DNA of 39,494 nucleotides from a virus: positions 1-39,494 of IMG/VR virus record IMGVR_UViG_3300048996_000037, one strand, 5' to 3'. The notes under the pieces are model-generated. The model worked only from the letters and a program-made list of their open reading frames with translations, was not told the DNA's origin and did not search any database. Below, piece by piece: positions 2,027 to 38,798 of this stretch (positions within the stretch are counted from its first letter, which is position 1; every line of letters starts with the position of its first letter). Both the position numbers and the translations under genes were made by a program.

Positions 2027-2301
2027 TGGGAGAATTGAACAGGCAGCAGATTTGCGCCGCCCTGGGGGTGAGCGAATCGACGATCCGGAGGCTGGAACAT
2101 GAGGGCCTGCCGTTTACTCCGGTCGGGTCGAGGTCGAAACGTTATGATCTTGCTGAGTGCAAGGTTTGGTTAAAGGAGAATCAGCAGTGTCAATCTGGGA
2201 CGACAAAAAGGGTCGCAAGCACGTCGGCATCATGGTCGCCGGGAAAAGAGTTCACCGAATACTGCCGGAAGGTGCAACTGCGAGTGATGCCAAACTCGTA
2301 G
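2023..2301 (+). CDS. AlpA/excisionase-like HTH DNA-binding protein
   Basis: 92 residues if started at ATG 2023 (or 91 from ATG 2026), preceded by a strong AAAGGGGAGGG. Residues about 5-58 form a MerR/AlpA-type winged helix-turn-helix: LNRQQICAALGVSESTIRRL, then a wing with VGSRSKRYDL and a closing helix ECKVWLKE. Such proteins next to integrase commonly act as recombination directionality factors (excisionase) or regulators of excision. The gene overlaps the start of integrase by about 115 bp in another frame, so the two are likely translated from one message. A role in prophage excision is inferred from the fold and the position. Confidence 0.75.
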   Translation: MMGELNRQQICAALGVSESTIRRLEHEGLPFTPVGSRSKRYDLAECKVWLKENQQCQSGTTKRVASTSASWSPGKEFTEYCRKVQLRVMPNS

Positions 2302-3203
2302 AGGCCGAACTCCGGGCCGCCGTGGCTCGTGCGCCCAAGATGGTGCGCATTCCCGGCGACCCGCCGATGCTGCAGATCATCCAGATCTACATCAACCATT
2401 CGAAGACCCTGCGCAGTTCTGAAACGTCGGAGTTTCACGCTGCGCGACTTATCCCATGGGCTGACAAATTTCGGGCAAGCCAAGCCCAGGAGTTTGCCGA
2501 TCACGTGATTGCCAATCTCAGCAAGCTAGTCCTGCACGAGAAAACGCAGACGATGAGGCCGGCATACGCGCAAGCCACGATCAATCGATCGCTGGCTTGT
2601 GCGAAAAAGGGGCTAGAACTCGCATGGCGCCAGAGGATAATTCCAGAAAATTACGGTGCGCGCATCCAGCCAGTGCAGGTGAATAACAAACGAGAGGTGT
2701 TCCTGGCCGTCGAGGAGGTGCAGGAGATTGCGCAGCACTGTTCCACTCAGGCCCAGGCCGCAATCTGGTTCGCGCTACTGACCGGCGCGCGCCGCGGCGA
2801 AATTTTCAAGATAAAGCCAGAACACATCCTCGACGAAACAATCCTGCTTCCAGCAAGCCACACGAAAACTAACCGGATGCGAGTGATTCCGATCATCCCC
2901 GCGCTGAGACCGTGGCTGGAGCACTTTCCGTTATCGATTACGATCGACGGCGTAAAGTCGGCGTGGCGCCGAGCACGCGTGACAGCTGGCATGGAGCATG
3001 TGAACTTCCACGACCTGCGACACTCGTGTGCGAGTATCATGCTGGGGCTCGGCGTTGACCTCTATACAATCAGCAAAGTGCTCGGCCACAGCAACGTGGC
3101 GACCACTCAGCGTTATGCTCACCTTCAAGTGGATGCGCAGCGGGTAGCGCTCGAAAAGATCGGGGCCTTGACTGCGAACATGGCGCCAAAGAAGTCTGTG
3201 TAA
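2187..3203 (+). CDS. int: Tyrosine-family site-specific integrase
   Basis: 338 residues from GTG 2187, chosen because AAAGGAG (2172-2178) lies 8 nt upstream; an upstream GTG at 2157 would lack this site. The catalytic residues of tyrosine recombinases are present: Arg202 (LLTGARRGE), Lys227 (SHTKTNR), His275 and Arg278 (HDLRHS), His301 (LGHSN) and the nucleophile Tyr310 (TQRYAHL). The N-terminal half should hold the arm-binding and core-binding domains. The enzyme catalyses phage integration and excision between attP and attB. The gene points at the tRNA-derived att core 100 bp downstream, the usual arrangement, and its stop codon lies inside the first putative arm site. Confidence 0.96.
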   Translation: MSIWDDKKGRKHVGIMVAGKRVHRILPEGATASDAKLVEAELRAAVARAPKMVRIPGDPPMLQIIQIYINHSKTLRSSETSEFHAARLIPWADKFRASQAQEFADHVIANLSKLVLHEKTQTMRPAYAQATINRSLACAKKGLELAWRQRIIPENYGARIQPVQVNNKREVFLAVEEVQEIAQHCSTQAQAAIWFALLTGARRGEIFKIKPEHILDETILLPASHTKTNRMRVIPIIPALRPWLEHFPLSITIDGVKSAWRRARVTAGMEHVNFHDLRHSCASIMLGLGVDLYTISKVLGHSNVATTQRYAHLQVDAQRVALEKIGALTANMAPKKSV

Positions 3204-22787: not shown

Positions 22788-22909
22788 ACGATTCCCATGA
22801 GTTTTCGGGCGGCTGCCCGCAATTTCGCGTCAATCGATCGCTTCCATTTGCGGACCGCGATGCGGCGCGCATGCGAGTTGCCGCCGTGTTTCGGCGCTCT
22901 GAATTGCAT
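22784..22909 (-). CDS. 41-residue basic protein between terL and portal
   Basis: ATG at 22909-22907 shares one base with the terL stop (TGATG), and its TGA overlaps the portal ATG by 4 bp, so the ORF fills the gap exactly. The product starts MQFRAPKHGGNSHARRIAVR and ends RAAARKLMGIV, with 13 Arg/Lys residues: strongly basic, probably helical. A function with DNA or portal is plausible but unproven. The exact coupling on both sides argues for real translation. Confidence 0.62.
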   Translation of the reverse strand: MQFRAPKHGGNSHARRIAVRKWKRSIDAKLRAAARKLMGIV

Positions 22910-24162
22910 CAGACGATTCCCAGTGATTGATAGTTGAGGGCGCCGCCCCAGTCCTCGTTGCTCATCGCCTCAGCGTTGATCGCGATGTAGCGGAGGTTGT
23001 CGGCGCCGTGGCTCCACTCGTCGTGCAGCGGCGCGCCGGCTTCCTGCGTCTGCTTGTTGATCGCGCGCCGGTAGCGCTTGGCGCACTGCACAATGCGTGC
23101 GGCCTTGGTCTTGTCGAAGTAGATGCGCGGGAAAGCCATGCGGGTCAGGCGGATGCCGTCCTCGATGCTCATGTTCGGCGTGATCGCGACCGTCCAGCCG
23201 AACGCCTGCATGATCTCCTCGGCGCTCTTGCCGGTCTTGAAGTCCCTGTGGCGGCCGTCGTGCGGCAGGAACAGCGTGCCCCAGTTCAGGCGCTTCTCGC
23301 GCAGCATCGCGGAGTAGTGGTCGAGCGTCTTGTGGCTGTCCTCGATGTTCTCGATGACGCGCAGCTCGGAGCCGTGACGCTGCACCAGGCTGATGGACAT
23401 CGCGTCGTTCCAGCCCAGGTCGACGACCACGTGCACCTTGAGCAGCGGATCGTATGGCACGTTGCAGATGCGCCGCTCTTCCGTGGCCTTGGTGACCTCG
23501 TCGTAGTAGATCGCGCCAGTGACGGCCGGCTTGCACTTGCCTTCCCAGATGTTCAGGTACTCGGCCTCGGGCAGCGTCGCCTTGGCGTGCAGCCGCTCCT
23601 TCTCCAGCACATCGGGGAACCACGGATTGTCCGTGTAGTTCATGTCGACGATGATTGCGTCCTCGGGCTGGTTCGTGATGAACCGGTCGTAGGTCTCGTC
23701 GGTGTCGAGCTCGGGATTGAACGACAGCCAGATTTCGGAGCTGGGCTTTCGGATCGTCGGGATCAGCACTGACCAAGAGCGCTTGCTCACCGTCTGCGCT
23801 TCCTCAACCCACACAATGTCAGCACCCTCAAACGATTTGATGGAATCGACGGTTTGCTCGGATAGGCCGGAGAAGCTGAACTCGGAACCGTTCTTGCCGC
23901 GAATCTCGGTCTCGAGCACCTGGTAGAAGCTGGACAGGCCGAGCGCCTCGATCTGGTCCTTCAGCAGCTTGTGCACCGACTGCTTGATCGACTTCTGCAC
24001 CTCGCGCGTGCACAGGATGCGCAGCTTCGTGGTCGAGCCCAGGATCAGCAGGGCGCGCGCGATGCTCCACGACTTCGCAGAGCCGCGGCCACCCTTGGCG
24101 CCCTTGTAGCGGGCCTTCTTCGTCAGCAGGAACTGGAGCTTCTCGGGGAAATCAACGTTCAT
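22909..24162 (-). CDS. terL: Terminase large subunit (PBSX/Terminase_3 type)
   Basis: 417 residues. Walker A GGRGSAKS at 24-31, Walker B DIVWVEEA at 115-122 with catalytic Glu, and coupling motif SFNP (147-150). The nuclease domain starts with VVVDLGWNDA (Asp248) and contains VIENIEDS and DEWSHGADNLRY with further acidic residues, as in the RNaseH-like fold. It packages DNA into procapsids by ATP hydrolysis and cuts the concatemer. Its start overlaps terS by 11 bp. The PBSX-type family is common in SU10/Sf6-like genomes with headful packaging, but packaging mode cannot be proven from this. Confidence 0.96.
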   Translation of the reverse strand: MNVDFPEKLQFLLTKKARYKGAKGGRGSAKSWSIARALLILGSTTKLRILCTREVQKSIKQSVHKLLKDQIEALGLSSFYQVLETEIRGKNGSEFSFSGLSEQTVDSIKSFEGADIVWVEEAQTVSKRSWSVLIPTIRKPSSEIWLSFNPELDTDETYDRFITNQPEDAIIVDMNYTDNPWFPDVLEKERLHAKATLPEAEYLNIWEGKCKPAVTGAIYYDEVTKATEERRICNVPYDPLLKVHVVVDLGWNDAMSISLVQRHGSELRVIENIEDSHKTLDHYSAMLREKRLNWGTLFLPHDGRHRDFKTGKSAEEIMQAFGWTVAITPNMSIEDGIRLTRMAFPRIYFDKTKAARIVQCAKRYRRAINKQTQEAGAPLHDEWSHGADNLRYIAINAEAMSNEDWGGALNYQSLGIV

Positions 24163-24655
24163 CGCCGGGCTTCACGAAGTTGATCTGCCAGTTCATGTTC
24201 AACGGATTGCCATCCTGGCCGCCATGGTTCAGGTCGACCCGCTCGCCGTAGCGCTTCGGGTCCCACTTGGCCAGCAGCTTGAGGCGCGTCTCGACGCGGA
24301 GCTTGGAGCGGGTGATCCATTCCGAGTTCGGGCGGTCACCTTCCTTGCCGCACACGGTGTCGAATGCCGTCTCGTCGGCGATCTCCAGGCACTCCTCGGC
24401 GATGGCGTCGAAGCCAGCCTCGCGCGCGCCCGCGATGCGTCTCGAAAAGCCCTCGTCGTCAGCCTTCCACCGGTAGACGGTTTGCCAAGATGGCATGCGT
24501 TCGTCCCGGCAGATTTGGCGTAGCGGCTCGCCTTGCGACAGACGCTCACAGATCTCGTCCGCAATCTCTTGCGTGAACGTGCTTGGCCTCCCTGGCGCCT
24601 TGGCCTCAGCCGGCGCCGCAGGCTTGCGGGTCTTCTTGGCTTTGGTTTCGGTCAT
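24152..24655 (-). CDS. terS: Terminase small subunit
   Basis: 167 residues from the ATG at 24655-24653. A basic N-terminus (KAKKTRKPAAPAEAKAPGRPS) leads into an HTH region (TFTQEIADEICERLSQGEPLRQICRDERMPSWQTVYRWKADDEGF), the DNA-recognition domain of Sf6-like small terminases. The C-terminal helices SEWITRSKLRVETRLKLLAKWDPKRYGERVDLNH match the oligomerisation core. It recognises the packaging site and presents DNA to TerL. The terminator 24666-24691 ends only about 10 nt upstream of its start codon, and the Shine-Dalgarno sequence is poor. Confidence 0.9.
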   Translation of the reverse strand: MTETKAKKTRKPAAPAEAKAPGRPSTFTQEIADEICERLSQGEPLRQICRDERMPSWQTVYRWKADDEGFSRRIAGAREAGFDAIAEECLEIADETAFDTVCGKEGDRPNSEWITRSKLRVETRLKLLAKWDPKRYGERVDLNHGGQDGNPLNMNWQINFVKPGDER

Positions 24656-24665
24656 GGTGGCGGAA

Positions 24666-24691
24666 TAAAAAAGCCCGACACGTGGCCGGGC
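24666..24691 (-). terminator. Intrinsic terminator immediately before terS
   Basis: Minus-strand hairpin GCCCGGC-CACGTG-TCGGGC followed by six T residues. Its 3' end is about 10 nt from the terS ATG. Any late transcript must pass it, which is the arrangement used by lambdoid late leaders controlled by antitermination. Confidence 0.82.
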
Positions 24692-24695
24692 GAAG

Positions 24696-24843
24696 CTCCC
24701 TTGCGGGAGTGGAGACGTTAGGAGTGGTGAGACGCAACGCTTTGGGCGCCACTTGGGCGCGGGGAGGTTGGTCGTGCGTTCACCACACGGAAGCCTCAGC
24801 GCGGGGCCTGGCTTTCGTGTGGTGCCCGGGTATTTCACCGGGC
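24696..24843. repeat. Cluster of inverted repeats in the terS leader
   Basis: No convincing ORF is present in 24692-24851. Three hairpins can be drawn: CTCCC-TTGC-GGGAG (24696-24709); a 15-bp inverted repeat CACCACACGGAAGCC (24781-24795) with GGCTTTCGTGTGGTG (24810-24824), one wobble pair, 14-nt loop; and CCCGG / CCGGG around 24825-24842. The middle element is related in sequence to the longer inverted repeat at 32919-32998. Possible roles: packaging site, antiterminator loading site or RNA structure. None is proven. Confidence 0.6.
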
Positions 24844-24851
24844 AGGCGGGA

Positions 24852-25262
24852 TTACTCGACTATCAGCCAGTCCTCGGCCATCACGTCACCGATCGACGGA
24901 ACCCAGGTGGAAATGCTGCCATCCGCGCCCTTGATGTCGATGTGCGGGCGGTAGGTGATTGGCGTGCCCTCGGGGTAGATGCCGAGCAGTGGCGCGCGGT
25001 TGACGGTGAACTGGCTGCCGGGCACGAGGAACACGAACATGCCTTTGCCGTTCCAGCCTGTGCGTGCGACCTTGGCGCCACCCTTGAGTGCGACGAGGGC
25101 ATCACCGAACGTCAGGCCGGTGAAGGCGGGCGCGTCTGCCAGCGGCGAATGGTCGGGCAACGGCGCGGTGCCGGTGAAGCTCGAACCGTCGGCGTATGTT
25201 TTCGTTTCCACCTTGAAGCTTGGCAGCGGGCCGCCTGCGTCGCCGAAATAACCTGGTTGCAT
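24852..25262 (-). CDS. DUF2829/Tad2-like protein, candidate anti-Thoeris factor
   Basis: 136 residues from the ATG at 25262-25260 with GAAGGAGAGC upstream. Residues 50-136 have the signature of DUF2829: LTFGDALVALKGGAKVARTGWNGKGMFVFLV, then NRAPLLGIYPEGTPITYRPHIDIKGADGSISTWVPS and the closing MAEDWLIVE. DUF2829 defines the Tad2 family, whose tested members bind and sequester the signalling nucleotide of Thoeris defence. The first 49 residues are an added Gly/Pro/Ser-rich segment. The gene sits alone between two terminators and between the early and late operons. Family assignment is firm; the anti-defence role is inferred. Confidence 0.8.
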   Translation of the reverse strand: MQPGYFGDAGGPLPSFKVETKTYADGSSFTGTAPLPDHSPLADAPAFTGLTFGDALVALKGGAKVARTGWNGKGMFVFLVPGSQFTVNRAPLLGIYPEGTPITYRPHIDIKGADGSISTWVPSIGDVMAEDWLIVE

Positions 25263-25292
25263 GTGCTCTCCTTCGTTATGTGCCCAGAACGC

Positions 25293-25320
25293 AAAAAGCC
25301 CGCGACCTTTCGGGGCGGGC
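25293..25320 (-). terminator. Intrinsic terminator upstream of the DUF2829 gene
   Basis: Minus-strand GCCCGC / GCGGGC stem with an 11-nt loop followed by five T residues. It would end leftward early transcription coming from Cro/PR about 30 bp before the DUF2829 gene. Confidence 0.82.
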
Positions 25321-25402
25321 TCGGGTACTCCAGGGCTATGTGCCAAGTGAGTAAAATGTTAATTGTTTCCAAGACGCAGTGTTGACATCTAGCACGGATA
25401 TC

Positions 25403-25807
25403 CTAATGGAAATATCGTCTCGTGGCAACATTTTTCAGCATCTTTACCGACAAAATCGCCTCGGCAGCAACAAGAGTATCGGCCAGCGATTTATCCGGGT
25501 AAATCCACGCTGTAGCCAGCCCAAACGCCTTACGAATCGCCCAGCGATAGTGGATCGGCAACTCATCGATCATGACGTCGACCGCTTCCCCGCACGCCAT
25601 GAATTCCTTGACGTCTTGAGGGTTCGCGAGACCGTGCGAATGCTGCTCGTCGGCCAGGCTCATCCAGCGCGCCCAAGTCTTCATCACGGCGCTGTAGGGG
25701 GTGTCGGCCTTTGGGGCCTTTTCGGTTTGATTGGCTGCGGTCTCGTTCATGGGGCTTCCTTCAGTTGTCTCGTTCTTCTCGCGGCGCTCGATCATCTGCT
25801 GCGTCAT
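25403..25807 (-). CDS. Early protein of unknown function near the late region
   Basis: 134 residues, ATGA overlap with the gene before. The N-terminal 35 residues are polar and probably disordered; the remainder is helical (YSAVMKTWARWMSLADEQH, KEFMACGEAVDVMIDELPIHYRWAIRKAFGLATAWIYPD). The last part (a VD..I..LP...RWAI pattern) resembles small helical proteins that close the PR operon in some beta-proteobacterial phages. As the last gene before the late region it is the best positional candidate for a Q-like antiterminator, but no sequence signature supports that. Confidence 0.6.
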   Translation of the reverse strand: MTQQMIERREKNETTEGSPMNETAANQTEKAPKADTPYSAVMKTWARWMSLADEQHSHGLANPQDVKEFMACGEAVDVMIDELPIHYRWAIRKAFGLATAWIYPDKSLADTLVAAEAILSVKMLKNVATRRYFH

Positions 25808-26651: not shown

Positions 26652-27244
26652 TACGCGGTCTCCTTCATTCGTTTGAGCTGGGCGCGGAAGTCCGCTTTCA
26701 GTGCCAGCAGTTCGGGGATCGTCCAGCCGCCTCCGGATTGGTCAGACTCGAGCGCCTCTACGAACGCCAGACCGAAGCGCGCGATCAGGCCGATGCGGTA
26801 GTCGGCTGCGTTGCCGGCGCGGTAGCGGTTGCACTTCTTGCACTGACCATGGGCGTTGCGCAGGTCGAAGCGCAGGTGCGACGCGCTGCCGCGGCTCCTG
26901 TAATGGCCGCAGTCGTAGCCGCCGCCGGGCTGGTCGGCGAGCGTCGAGAGCTGCGTAGGGCAGCTGATGCACACCTCATTGCGGTCGCGGTAGCGCACCA
27001 GGGCGTTGAACGCCACCTGTGTGTCGGCGATGTGCTGGCCGCGCGTCTTGACCTTCTGCTTGCGCTCGCGGGTCTGCTTGGCGTCCAGGCGCTTGCGTTC
27101 GGCGACGGCGTGTGCGGCCGCGCATTCCGGGCCGCAGGCCTTCGCCCAGGTCGAGCGCGGGACGAACTTCTCGCGGCAGATCGTGCATTTCTTCGGGCGC
27201 GCGGGCTTGAGAGTGCCAGTGCGGGAGATGGGGGAGCGGATCAT
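26651..27244 (-). CDS. ninG: NinG/Rap recombination protein
   Basis: 197 residues from the ATG at 27244-27242 (the frame continues upstream, but this Met has a 4-bp overlap with the methyltransferase-like gene). The N-terminal zinc-binding segment CTICREKFVPRSTWAKACGPEC, a basic helix (RKRLDAKQTRERKQKVKTRGQ) and the central motif DCGHYRSRGSASHLRFDLRNAHGQCKKCNRYRAGN are those of the NinG/Rap family. Lambda Rap is a structure-specific endonuclease that cuts recombination intermediates. With NinB, RecT and YqaJ it completes a phage recombination set. Confidence 0.93.
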   Translation of the reverse strand: MIRSPISRTGTLKPARPKKCTICREKFVPRSTWAKACGPECAAAHAVAERKRLDAKQTRERKQKVKTRGQHIADTQVAFNALVRYRDRNEVCISCPTQLSTLADQPGGGYDCGHYRSRGSASHLRFDLRNAHGQCKKCNRYRAGNAADYRIGLIARFGLAFVEALESDQSGGGWTIPELLALKADFRAQLKRMKETA

Positions 27245-27903
27245 GCAGCCTCCAGCAGCCGCGCCATGACGTCGCCACCCCACTGCGCGGCGAAGGCTTC
27301 GGCGATCGCCGGGTCGGTGCGGCTGCGCTCCCGCTCCCGATTCGGGCCGGGCGGCATCATGTGGCAGGCCGCGGTGATCGTCTCGAAGTCGGTCTTCTTG
27401 TGCGTCGGGACCAGCGGCTGGACACCCTTAAGCCACAGCGCCGCGGCCTTCGTGAATGGCGAACCGAACATCCAAGGTTGTACTGCCTGGTCATAGCGGC
27501 CGATATGCTGCATCGCAAGCCCGTGCGGCATCGAGTTCTCAAGGACGATCTTCGGGATGTCGCAGTTCTTGAGTGCATTGAAGAATTCGACGCCGGCCAG
27601 AAAGTCGTCCATCCGGTTCGGGAAATCCGGATGCCGGCGGCGCTCGGCCGCGGGTAGGTGCGTATCCTCCGGGTGGTACATCCAGCGGATGCCGGCCAGA
27701 TTGTTGAACGTGCAGTACGGGTGCGCGATCATCATGTCGAAGCTCTCGGCGCCAGACTTGATCACTTCCAGCAGGTCGCCTTGAATGTGCCACCCGTGCG
27801 GCGCTTCGGTGGCGCGCAGATCGCAGGACACCGCGGTGTGACCCAGGCGGGCGAACGCGTCACGCACGCGACCAGAGTATTCGCAGCCAATCAGGATTTT
27901 CAT
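27241..27903 (-). CDS. Phage C5-cytosine-methyltransferase-like protein
   Basis: 220 residues. MKILIGCEYSGRVRDAFARLGHTAVSCDL corresponds to the SAM-binding motif I region of C5 DNA methyltransferases. DMMIAHPYCTFNNLAGIRW is in the place of the catalytic P-P-C motif, with Tyr replacing the second Pro, and KIVLENSMPHG stands for the E-N-V motif. No target-recognition domain follows. Small proteins of this kind are common in phage early regions, annotated as DNA cytosine methyltransferase. It may modify phage DNA against restriction or act on another base substrate; activity is inferred. Confidence 0.75.
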   Translation of the reverse strand: MKILIGCEYSGRVRDAFARLGHTAVSCDLRATEAPHGWHIQGDLLEVIKSGAESFDMMIAHPYCTFNNLAGIRWMYHPEDTHLPAAERRRHPDFPNRMDDFLAGVEFFNALKNCDIPKIVLENSMPHGLAMQHIGRYDQAVQPWMFGSPFTKAAALWLKGVQPLVPTHKKTDFETITAACHMMPPGPNRERERSRTDPAIAEAFAAQWGGDVMARLLEAA

Positions 27904-30647: not shown

Positions 30648-30842
30648 CTGCTCAATGCTGACGCCGCTCTCTGCGGCCAGCTTTTCCAGGCCGAGGATCA
30701 CCTGGTGAGACGGACGTTTAACCCCGGCTTTGCCCGAAGCCATCTCGCTGATCGTCGGCTGCTTGAGCCCGATAGCGTTGGCAATCTGGGTCTGCGTAAG
30801 CCCGGCCTTTTGAAGTTCGGAGAGGATGTGAGGGATGTTCAT
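30639..30842 (-). CDS. Cro-like XRE-family repressor
   Basis: 67 residues from the ATG at 30842-30840. HTH: LTQTQIANAIGLKQPTISEMASGK (about 15-38), followed by VKRPSHQVILGLEKLAAES. Size and divergent position from cI match Cro. It should bind the operators between cro and cI to switch off cI during lytic growth. The -10 of its promoter ends only 7 nt before the ATG, so the transcript is predicted to start at or 1 nt before the start codon (leaderless). Confidence 0.85.
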   Translation of the reverse strand: MNIPHILSELQKAGLTQTQIANAIGLKQPTISEMASGKAGVKRPSHQVILGLEKLAAESGVSIEQPP

Positions 30843-30849
30843 GGATACG

Positions 30850-30878
30850 ATTATAGGAACTCCGATTTTAGAAGTCAA
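30850..30878 (-). promoter_or_regulatory. PR-type promoter for cro
   Basis: On the minus strand: -35 TTGACT (30878-30873), 17-bp spacer, -10 TATAAT (30855-30850). Near-consensus sigma70 promoter. Two operator-like sites overlap its spacer/-10 and its -35. Confidence 0.88.
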
Positions 30879-30923
30879 TCGGTATTCCGATCTAATGCCC
30901 ATCGATAATATCGGGATGTCTAT
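30853..30923. promoter_or_regulatory. Operator cluster of the genetic switch (OR-like)
   Basis: Three related 14-bp sites: ATAGG-AACT-CCGAT (30853-30866), ATCGG-TATT-CCGAT (30878-30891, perfect palindrome) and ATCGG-GATG-TCTAT (30910-30923). The first lies on the cro promoter -10/spacer, the second between the promoters, the third on the cI start. The perfect form recurs at PL. Presumed targets of CI and Cro. Confidence 0.82.
30904..30916 (+). promoter_or_regulatory. PRM-like promoter for leaderless cI
   Basis: -10 GATAAT (30904-30909) puts the transcription start at 30916, the A of the cI ATG. No good -35 is present (GGTATT at 17-bp spacing), so activation by bound repressor is possible. 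Lambda cI from PRM is also leaderless. Confidence 0.6.
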
Positions 30924-31641
30924 AGGATCAAGAATTAAAGAAGCGCGTCGTGCTGCGAAGCTGACGCAGAAGGTGCTTGCCCAAAAAGTGGGTATGGCTC
31001 AAGCATCGCTTTCGGAGCTCGAGACTGGGGAATCCCAGGGCACAACCATGATCGGGTCGCTCGCGGCCGCCTTGGGCGTCAGCGCTCTATGGCTGGAAAC
31101 GGGCAAAGGCGCGATGGTGACAGGCGAGCCAACGTTGCAGTTGGTCGAATCGGACTCGCCCTTCATCGAGGCGCCGGCGGCGGGGCCAGGCGGCGCCGTG
31201 CGCGCAGGGGAGGGGCCAAATACGGTCGCAATCCCGCGCATCAAACTCCGACTGCGCGCCGGTGTGGCGAATTACGACACCGAACCAGACATGGACGGTG
31301 ATGGGTATGTGCACGTACCCCAGGAGGTGTTAGATGAGGCGCGGGTGGATCCAGCAAACTTGCGGGTCCTGCGCGTGCGCGGCCCGAGCATGGAGCCGCT
31401 GATGTTCGAGGATGACCCTGTAGTGGTCGATCTGTCAGACCGGAAGCCGCAACACAAGGAAATCTATGCGATTAACTGGAACGGCGAGGCCGTCATTAAG
31501 CAGCTGATATGTCGCGGGAAGGAATGGTATCTGCATTCGATTAACGTCGATTTTGGCCCGGTTAATGTTCGGAGTGGCCAATGCAGCATCGTAGGACGTG
31601 TGGTCATTCAGCCAACGCGGGTTTTAACAGGCCGACTGTGA
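30916..31641 (+). CDS. CI-type repressor with S24 self-cleaving domain
   Basis: 241 residues from ATG 30916, chosen because the -10 box predicts transcription starting there; in-frame upstream codons (30895, 30835) lie inside the operators. N-terminal XRE HTH: LTQKVLAQKVGMAQASLSELETG (about 17-40). C-terminal S24/LexA-like domain: Ser158 in VRGPSMEPLMFEDD and Lys195 in AVIKQLI, 37 residues apart as in LexA (S119/K156). The probable cleavage region is the linker 90-125 (candidates AG in RAGEG or RAGVA). It maintains lysogeny and would be inactivated by RecA-stimulated self-cleavage after DNA damage. Confidence 0.93.
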   Translation: MSIGSRIKEARRAAKLTQKVLAQKVGMAQASLSELETGESQGTTMIGSLAAALGVSALWLETGKGAMVTGEPTLQLVESDSPFIEAPAAGPGGAVRAGEGPNTVAIPRIKLRLRAGVANYDTEPDMDGDGYVHVPQEVLDEARVDPANLRVLRVRGPSMEPLMFEDDPVVVDLSDRKPQHKEIYAINWNGEAVIKQLICRGKEWYLHSINVDFGPVNVRSGQCSIVGRVVIQPTRVLTGRL

Positions 31642-37213: not shown

Positions 37214-37761
37214 TCCTCGCAACCGGATCGGATCTGACCGACGACACATTCAACGACTTCGTGCAGCGCCTGCGCCATCATGTGCGCGGTGAGGGTGTCA
37301 GCTGGCACCACACCGCCGACGCGATGTTCACCGTGCAGGCTCGGAAGATCATCTTCGGCATCGACCCGGCGTACACCGAAAAGCTAGCCGTTGCCATCGA
37401 GGACAGCATGTTTTTCAGCCCGCAGGAATATTGGGACGACTGCGACGAGCAATGCCGGGCACGCCTGGACGAGCAGGCGCAAGAGGATCACGACGGCCCG
37501 TTCCTTTCGCTGGATGCTTGCGACCAGTGGGAGATTCTTGCCGCGCTGGACGATCACACCGTCTCGGGCTGGGATGAGCGCTGGGAGTTCGTCTGCGCCC
37601 ACTTCACGAAAGAGGCGGCCGAGGCGTTCATCAATCGCAAGAAGCACGACTACCGCGACGGCATGCGCGTCTACGTCCAAGCCCAAGTCTACTGCTGGGA
37701 GTTCAACGCCATCATCAACGGCCTGCTCGACGGCCAGATCAAATTTTCGGAGTCACCATGA
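37210..37761 (+). CDS. Acidic early protein, unknown function
   Basis: 183 residues, overlapping neighbours by 4 bp on both sides. Acidic (many Asp/Glu) with aromatic clusters (FFSPQEYWDDCDEQC, DERWEFVCAHF, VYCWEFNAIINGLLDG). Contains GEGVSWHHTADAMFTVQARKIIFGIDP at the N-terminus. Its acidity and size recall DNA-mimic anti-defence proteins, but no signature backs this. Confidence 0.7.
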   Translation: MILATGSDLTDDTFNDFVQRLRHHVRGEGVSWHHTADAMFTVQARKIIFGIDPAYTEKLAVAIEDSMFFSPQEYWDDCDEQCRARLDEQAQEDHDGPFLSLDACDQWEILAALDDHTVSGWDERWEFVCAHFTKEAAEAFINRKKHDYRDGMRVYVQAQVYCWEFNAIINGLLDGQIKFSESP

Positions 37762-38798
37762 CCGACACCCAACCATCTGGCGCAGAGAGCGCCCTTGACC
37801 TAGAAAAGCTTCTGCCGTGTCCGTTTTGCGGCAGCGCGAATATCGACCCCGCCGGCTGGTCCGGAATTGACGAGAAAGGCGGCCCAGGCTGCGGCAACTG
37901 CGGCGCGCTGGCCGACAGCGCCGAACTTTGGAACCGCCGTGCTACCGCTCCCCATGCTGGACCAGGGCCGGCCGAGATCCGCAACATCACGCAGATCGAG
38001 CGCTCGAGCGATCAAAGCGTGCGCGTCACCTTCACCTCGGCGCGTGCGGCCAGCGCGTTCTCGGCAAGTCTTGCCCATACGCAAGCAGCACTCTCCGCCC
38101 ATCCCACCCATCCCGCCGAGCCTGTATGCACGGTTTGCGAGGATGCCCCTGCTGAAATCGGCGGAGCCTGCGCCTTATGCCACTGGAAAACGCCGGTCGG
38201 ACCTGGGGGCGGCGCACTGGTGGCGATGTCCGAGTGGGAAGCAGGCAGGGAGGATGCTGACGGCAATCTGCTGGTTACTCGGCGCGCCGACGAACTTGTC
38301 GCCGCCGCAGACTTTATGACGCAAGGCGCGCTTGCATCGGTACGCATCGACGGCCGTGTTGTTCGCCGCGAAGAACTTGCCGAACGTTTCAGATCGTTTT
38401 CCGAGGTCGCCACCCCTACTGGCGCATTGGTGGCGAAGGCCGACTTTGACCGCGAAGAATTCATGCGGCAAGTGCTGGAAAGCGCCTGTGAAATTCCAGA
38501 CCGCAACAGCCCCGAAGATCAACCGGAAATGCTCCTTCTGACCACCGAAGAACTGGAGAACATCATGCGCAGCGCGTTCGAGTTGATCGACGAAGAAGCG
38601 GAATTGGCAGACGAGAGCGCAGCGGCACCGGCAGAGGTAATCGCGGATCGTCAGTATCTAGACGGGTTCGATGCGGGTTTCATGGCTGGCGAAGCGGGCG
38701 ACCACGAAAAGCGCGCCAGCGTTCATGCGGCCCGCCGCGCCGGAATCCGCGAAGCTCTCACCACCCATCAGCCTTCTACCAAAGGAGAGAAATCATGA
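37758..38798 (+). CDS. Lar-like zinc-finger protein with added early modules
   Basis: 346 residues. Residues about 17-60 (LLPCPFCGSANIDPAGW ... GPGCGNCGALADSAELWNRRA) match the Lar restriction-alleviation zinc-finger module. After a Pro/Ala linker comes a beta-type part, a second Cys cluster (VCTVCEDAPAEIGGACALCHW, about 120-140), then helical parts with acidic patches (TTEELENIMRSAFELIDEEAELADE). Lar proteins relieve type I restriction of phage DNA; here the module is only the first sixth of the protein, so that role is inferred. ATGA overlaps at both ends. Confidence 0.72.
   Translation: MTDTQPSGAESALDLEKLLPCPFCGSANIDPAGWSGIDEKGGPGCGNCGALADSAELWNRRATAPHAGPGPAEIRNITQIERSSDQSVRVTFTSARAASAFSASLAHTQAALSAHPTHPAEPVCTVCEDAPAEIGGACALCHWKTPVGPGGGALVAMSEWEAGREDADGNLLVTRRADELVAAADFMTQGALASVRIDGRVVRREELAERFRSFSEVATPTGALVAKADFDREEFMRQVLESACEIPDRNSPEDQPEMLLLTTEELENIMRSAFELIDEEAELADESAAAPAEVIADRQYLDGFDAGFMAGEAGDHEKRASVHAARRAGIREALTTHQPSTKGEKS

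Follow-up and report, generated by a model that had tools for sequence, protein, structure and literature searches.

A Tad2-family gene carried as exchangeable cargo ahead of the terminase genes of a temperate podovirus-like phage

The phage genome analysed here carries a gene for a Tad2-family protein between orfA and the gene of the terminase small subunit (TerS), and this gene is the occupant of an exchangeable cargo slot which in related phages is empty or holds a gene of another sponge family. Proteins of the Tad2 family soak up the signalling molecules with which Thoeris, a bacterial defence, raises the alarm. Taken as a whole, we consider it likely that the protein is a Tad2-family sponge for a Thoeris signal, carried as exchangeable cargo and provided with a chimeric N-terminus. 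The window, meaning the whole stretch of 39,494 nt that was analysed, is a single linear IMG/VR record with no host given.

The Tad2-like gene and its predicted fold

The gene was found on the minus strand, at the positions given by an initial sequence-only reading of the window. Its open reading frame has 136 codons with an ATG start, and AAGGAG stands 5 nt upstream of the start. The plus-strand reading of the same positions was discarded as unrelated to the Tad2-like protein.

24852..25262, minus strand: tad2-like coding sequence, 136 aa (translation; PF11195 81.9 bits; phrog_872 98.7 bits)
24855..25115, minus strand: Tad2-like domain, residues 50-136, 87 residues (Pfam, PDB sequence matches, AlphaFold2 model)
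25268..25273, minus strand: ribosome-binding site AAGGAG (sequence)

The sequence-only reading had recognised a full DUF2829 pattern, and every motif that it quoted is present in the protein. The search with PF11195, proposed there as a check on a family now called Tad2-like, gave a match to residues 51-135 that covers the whole domain (profile positions 2-73 of 73) with 81.9 bits against a curated cut-off of 25 bits (E 4.9e-23), and the N-terminal segment of 49 residues, described as an extra, indeed lies outside this match. The same residues are covered by PHROG families 872 and 1048, which have no assigned name, and the sequence matches in the PDB are ModTad2 (E 4.5e-23), SPO1 Tad2, SptTad2 and HgmTad2/AcrIIA7. 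All eleven columns that are invariant in an alignment of 77 homologs are kept (F52, G62, R67, G69, W70, N71, G72, F76, W120, D131 and W132).

An AlphaFold2 model, built from 77 homologs and for the monomer only, reached a mean pLDDT of 90 and exceeded 94 in the domain. Its overlay on solved structures, the second check proposed, corroborates the HMM result in that the monomer superposes on Tad2 structures with Z scores of 10.4-12.2. The best match was ModTad2 with His-ADPR (9eib; Z 12.2, Foldseek E 1.3e-10), the other solved Tad2 structures gave Z 10.4-11.8, and the first unrelated chain, the neck protein of phage 812, gave Z 5.4. By HMM and predicted fold the gene product is a Tad2-family domain.

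Comparison with characterised proteins places the window protein closest to ModTad2 of a Myroides odoratus prophage (9eib/8v3e), its best match in both sequence and fold, with 48-49% identity in the domain. Like the window protein, ModTad2 has an aliphatic residue at position 124 and is without the long insertion, but it is only 88 aa in length, has no N-terminal segment, belongs to another branch of the tree and differs in the stretch 88-97 (NRAPLLGIYP versus QTDVIKNTF). SPO1 Tad2 (gp34.65; 8smf/8smg/8wje) shares the fold (Z about 11-11.8) and the invariant residues at about 43% identity, but has Gln at position 124 and a shorter stretch after strand 2. SptTad2 and HgmTad2/AcrIIA7 (8wjd, 8kbi-8kbm, 9kzr) also share the fold (Z 10.4-11.6), and 9kzr has, like the window protein, an N-terminal segment, of 48 residues; unlike the window protein, however, both have an insertion that is 10-15 residues longer and Gln at position 124. 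P015 of Sinorhizobium phage AP-20-A (PMC13299392) is likewise a podovirus Tad2-like domain that is closest to ModTad2, although it has 97 aa and comes from a lytic rhizobiophage.

It had been anticipated that a Tad2 in this phage would extend the known range of the family, but this expectation does not hold, since Tad2 homologs are widespread and a rhizobial podovirus with Tad2 is already published (PMC13299392). Homologs were found in 388 of 50,697 phage records (E 1e-3 or better), homologs are numerous in IMG/VR as well, 135 Tad2 stretches were confirmed in prokaryote genomes, and Burkholderia, Comamonas, Janthinobacterium and many other genomes also carry homologs. The Tad2 of the window is one further member of a large family.

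The cargo slot and its occupants

The slot lies between orfA and TerS and comprises the following features.

25403..25807, minus strand: orfA, left-hand flank of the slot (homologs in L233, 64%; L308, 66%; L279, 66%)
25293..25321, minus strand: upstream intrinsic terminator GAGCCCGCCCCGAAAGGUCGCGGGCUUUUUG (RNA fold; kept at the same place in L233, L308, L312, L313 and L315)
24822..25286, minus strand: cargo insert, about 465 nt (absent in L308/L311/L279/L280 and L315; PF13876 gene instead in L233, L310, L312, L313 and L314)
24782..24823, minus strand: strong hairpin CACCACACG...CGTGTGGTG directly 3' of the cargo (fold z -3.8; eight contig stretches)
24667..24691, minus strand: downstream intrinsic terminator, 5' of TerS (terminator scan; fold; kept in related phages)
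24152..24658, minus strand: Sf6-like terminase small subunit, right-hand flank of the slot (PF20901, 131.5 bits)
22909..24162, minus strand: terminase large subunit, TerL (query for close relatives, 90-94% identity)

The gene had been described as standing alone between two terminators, and both are there: GAGCCCGCCCCGAAAGGUCGCGGGCUUUUUG upstream, whose T-tract ends 30 nt from the start codon, and GCCCGGCCACGUGUCGGGC-UUUUUU downstream, each of them found again at the same place in related phages. The further description of a position between early and late operons stands in part. A middle or regulatory block (methyltransferase, NinG, orfC, orfB and orfA) does lie upstream and the packaging and head genes from TerS onwards lie downstream, but the neighbours on both sides are on the same minus strand. 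The hairpin between cargo and TerS is without a T-tract and is conserved in the eight contig stretches. Rfam gave nothing above gathering on the window or on the slot; a betaproteobacterial sRNA family at 24666-24717 was rejected as below threshold (20.9 bits, gathering 50). A search of NCBIfam gave no match.

Relatives were collected by TerL at 90-94% identity and their upstream regions compared, and further copies of the slot were sought in IMG/VR through exact matches to the sequences of hairpin and terminator; the resulting counts rest on few, mostly short contigs, several of them from neighbouring samples. The relative L233, with TerS 91% and TerL 90% identical, shares the orfA homolog, the terminator and the hairpin, and its cargo is a 122-aa PF13876 protein (105.2 bits). 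PF13876 ("N4 Gp49/Sf6 gp66") is the Acb4 family of cyclic-dinucleotide sponges, in which all eight tested homologs bind 3'3'-cGAMP (PMC11722364), and the L233 protein matches the Acb4 structure 9e4w (E 4e-4). A PF13876 gene occupies the slot in L233/L309, L310, L312, L313 and L314, with scores of 120.6 bits in L283/L310, 115.2 in L312 and 105.8 in L314 against a cut-off of 27, while the assignment in L313 is by our own HMM only. Acb4 (PF13876; SPO1, 9e4w) is, like Tad2, a family of signal sponges, but its fold and its ligand, 3'3'-cGAMP, are unrelated to those of Tad2 and it is absent from the window; its homologs sit in the same slot and are fused to Tad2 elsewhere.

No cargo is present in L308/L311, two contigs of identical sequence at this site that were also retrieved as L279/L280, nor in L315. 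A three-way alignment shows that at the empty site the terminator runs directly into the hairpin, and the bounds of the cargo, about 24822-25286, are set accordingly. The tad2-like gene is thus seen to occupy an exchangeable cargo slot, and its likeness to a cargo gene, proposed from the window alone, has stronger support than was first supposed. The emptiness of the slot in some relatives marks the gene as dispensable, as would be expected of a decayed or neutral passenger without function; yet the frame is open, the ribosome-binding site is good and all family-invariant residues are kept, which makes a passenger very improbable. Two other contigs share the upstream terminator: at the cargo position of L317 lies a small hydrophobic ORF, and in L316 no gene can be clearly recognised there. 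The slot of L230, with terminator and hairpin, has no assigned cargo; a sponge gene is therefore not present in every copy of the slot. The slot offers a means of finding sponge genes by position, as different occupants between the same flanks.

The promoter scan found no promoter between the upstream terminator and the gene, and the sole promoter-like match on the minus strand in this region is located at the end of orfA, before the terminator is reached (one found, 0.6 expected). The gene would be expressed by read-through of the upstream terminator. No Pfam match was obtained for orfA, and the gene upstream of the slot in L230 has a sub-threshold match to antitermination protein Q; that orfA might be a Q-like antiterminator is a guess. 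The arrangement of promoter, terminator, cargo and packaging genes resembles, we suggest, the start of a late operon under Q-type antitermination, in which case synthesis of the sponge would precede that of the capsid. The capsid protein triggers Thoeris (PMC12043709), and since the genes for packaging and head follow immediately after both kinds of sponge, either could be made before this trigger. The cargo is one of at least two alternative sponge genes, of the Tad2 or the Acb4 family, in a terminator-insulated slot that precedes the genes for packaging and head.

The pocket loop and the candidate ligands

By homology, the protein is expected to assemble as a tetramer with interface pockets that would bind the ADP-ribose-type signal of Thoeris TIR proteins. 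The sequestered signal would be kept from the ThsA effector, and the infected cell would not abort.

The walls of the gcADPR pocket include the loop β4-α3 and helix α3 of one protomer (PMC12043709). Position 124 lies within this loop between strand 4 and helix 3 and is Gln in SPO1 Tad2, SptTad2, HgmTad2 and 119 of 159 homologs, whereas it is Ile in the window protein and Val in ModTad2, a binder of His-ADPR (PDB title of 9eib; PMC13299392). The pocket-loop residue suggests a ligand of the His-ADPR type (type II Thoeris) somewhat more than gcADPR (type I). As judged from sequence, a sponge for a Thoeris signal is favoured, and a His-ADPR-type signal appears somewhat more likely than gcADPR, with low certainty. 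It must be noted that the criterion at position 124 is our own, drawn from four characterised proteins and a reading of the review PMC12043709, and is unproven.

That the protein prefers gcADPR, position 124 being irrelevant to the ligand, is possible but somewhat unlikely. This ligand is bound by most characterised Tad2 proteins, and the nearest neighbours outside the protein's own small clade, for example that of Oxalobacter (L143), carry the gcADPR-type Gln; the loop itself, however, reads STWVPSIGD and is closer to ATWTPSVSD of ModTad2 than to HAWVPSQTD of SPO1. On the tree, three changes suffice to explain the non-Gln residues at position 124, against a mean of 36 after shuffling, and these residues form about three clustered groups. 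Since ModTad2 and the window protein are found in different non-Gln groups and on different branches, their shared aliphatic residue would be convergence, on a tree with weak support (7 of 155 branches starred). The pattern at position 124 could serve as a cheap and testable rule for which Thoeris signal a given Tad2 binds.

A Tad2-fold sponge directed mainly at a cyclic dinucleotide (CBASS or cGG), after the manner of SptTad2 and HgmTad2, would fit the ligands of those two proteins (PDB titles; PMC12043709) and the Acb4-family, anti-CBASS genes that relatives hold in the same slot. Binding of cyclic dinucleotides has been tied to a long insertion between strands 2 and 5 (PMC12043709), and the insertion of the SptTad2 and HgmTad2 type is absent in the window protein, whose domain of 87 residues compares with 85 in ModTad2 and 84 in SPO1 Tad2 as against 97 in SptTad2 and about 102 in HgmTad2. 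SPO1 Tad2, moreover, does not bind 3'3'-cGAMP (PMC11722364). These observations render a dinucleotide sponge improbable, and a Thoeris signal is the ligand that we favour for the window protein.

The N-terminal segment, sponge pairs and host context

Two parts of the N-terminal segment recur outside the Tad2 family.

25143..25211, minus strand: residues 18-40, a peptide module of 23 residues, VETKTYADGSSFTGTAPLPDHSP (shared by many phage proteins)
25227..25262, minus strand: residues 1-12, MQPGYFGDAGGP (another gene, in L089, begins with the identical residues)

The module, with the consensus [IV]ETKxYADGTxATGPAPLPDxSP, was found by a protein-level DNA pattern in 46 IMG/VR stretches, including L094-L138, and it precedes Tad2, precedes or follows Acb4, follows a "GRIVWVR...EWMPYQ" domain or sits at the ends of low-complexity proteins. 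Among 399 Burkholderiales genomes, 2 contain the module and none contains the reversed control pattern. A tblastn search of named phages with the N-terminal segment or the consensus peptide gave no usable match. What is conserved is the peptide: synonymous codons vary freely, even between both serine codon families, and selection therefore acts on the peptide. The free synonymous sites and the switches of serine codon family rule out the module as a DNA element such as a packaging or regulatory site. The L089 gene that shares residues 1-12 is closely followed by a gene with the module. In the tree, the window's Tad2 domain clusters with L002-L004 and apart from L038 and L082, which are Tad2 proteins that carry the module. 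N-terminal additions are common among Tad2 homologs, a type of about 75 residues ("YIGTK...WSP") being frequent, and most homologs are without the 23-residue module.

Judged by these matches, the N-terminal segment is a chimera of the start of another gene and a recurrent peptide module. In the simplest account three genes would have contributed, one its start, another the module and the last the Tad2 domain, brought together by deletion or recombination. The 49 residues may be a chimeric leftover or a linker outside the pocket. If instead the module were functional in docking, localisation or virion attachment, the protein would be more than a signal sponge. Conservation of the peptide across unrelated proteins with free synonymous sites speaks for this, as does the hairpin predicted by AlphaFold2 in the window protein (pLDDT about 88), but the module has the low confidence of a disordered linker in the L128 fusion described below (pLDDT 42-47) and is missing from most Tad2 homologs, and we regard a functional module as rather doubtful.

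Acb4 and Tad2 also occur joined in one protein.

L128:1551-2285, L088:1462-2238, L174:9725-10267 and L183:9689-10273: Acb4-Tad2 fusion ORFs (both domains by Pfam)
L325:1498-2055: Acb4-Tad2 single CDS of Pasteurella phage Pmp13 (alignment only)

L174 belongs to Psychrobacter phenylpyruvicus and L183 to a Campylobacterota MAG, and the model of the L128 fusion matches ModTad2 and Acb4 structures alike. Separate Acb4 and Tad2 genes are neighbours at most 40 nt apart in L132, L166, L179, L196, L206 and L208. Eight Acb4 matches were found in 80 genome loci (1.35 Mb) that had been retrieved through their Tad2, and every one of them is fused to Tad2 or lies within 300 nt of it; were these eight placed at random, the product of the probabilities would be about 4e-9. 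Among named phages, 90 records have Acb4 and Tad2 in one joined place, and in E. coli phage Huey the order is antiterminator Q, lysis genes, Tad2, Acb4, TerS, TerL and portal. No Acb4 was found in the 80 IMG/VR loci nearest to the window's Tad2, and the clade of the window is thus tied to Acb4 only through the slot.

On balance, and with moderate confidence, we hold that the site ahead of the terminase is an exchangeable sponge slot and that Acb4 and Tad2 are repeatedly paired as counter-signalling proteins, be it as slot alternatives, as neighbours or as two-headed fusions, of which the window is one state with its Tad2 domain shuffled at the peptide module. If this is true, fused and adjacent sponges are predicted to counter two signalling defences simultaneously, and the two-headed fusions would block CBASS and Thoeris together. 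In the part of the literature naming both families that was accessible to us, no mention of Acb4-Tad2 fusions was found, although they may have been reported elsewhere.

Some side observations concern these sponge loci. In Huey (L326 / PQ850609.1, 37079-38194) both Tad2 and Acb4 are annotated "anti-CRISPR protein", at a location as in the window. Two of 65 genes around the peptide module in L094-L132 match Acb2_Tad1_hairpin (PF24729), another sponge family. One ORF, L136:153-1208 (minus strand), has an Acb4-family domain followed by a crAss001_48 domain (PF21825), and the latter domain may have a counter-defence role.

An integrase gene at 2157-3203 and the gene of an S24/HTH repressor at 30835-31641 mark the phage as temperate. 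The sequence-only reading had taken it for a podovirus of a probable beta-proteobacterium. The Sf6-like TerS, SU10-type portal, head scaffold and DNA-ejection protein are podovirus-like and bear out the first part, whereas the proposed host found little support: of 399 Burkholderiales genomes, no more than 2 carried a relative of the portal, with identities of 38% and 27%. A Tad2 ORF lies near the portal of the one Burkholderiales prophage with a clear portal relative (L226:3922-4599). Thoeris effectors were rare but present in the Burkholderiales sample, with type II ThsA_Macro and type I STALD each in 2 of 300. Type II Thoeris was not found in 16 host genomes of Tad2 prophages, a search in which the control gave no signal either. 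The window holds further possible counter-defence genes, namely a match to Lar-like restriction alleviation at 37758-38798 (plus strand) and a phage DNA methyltransferase at 27241-27903 (minus strand).
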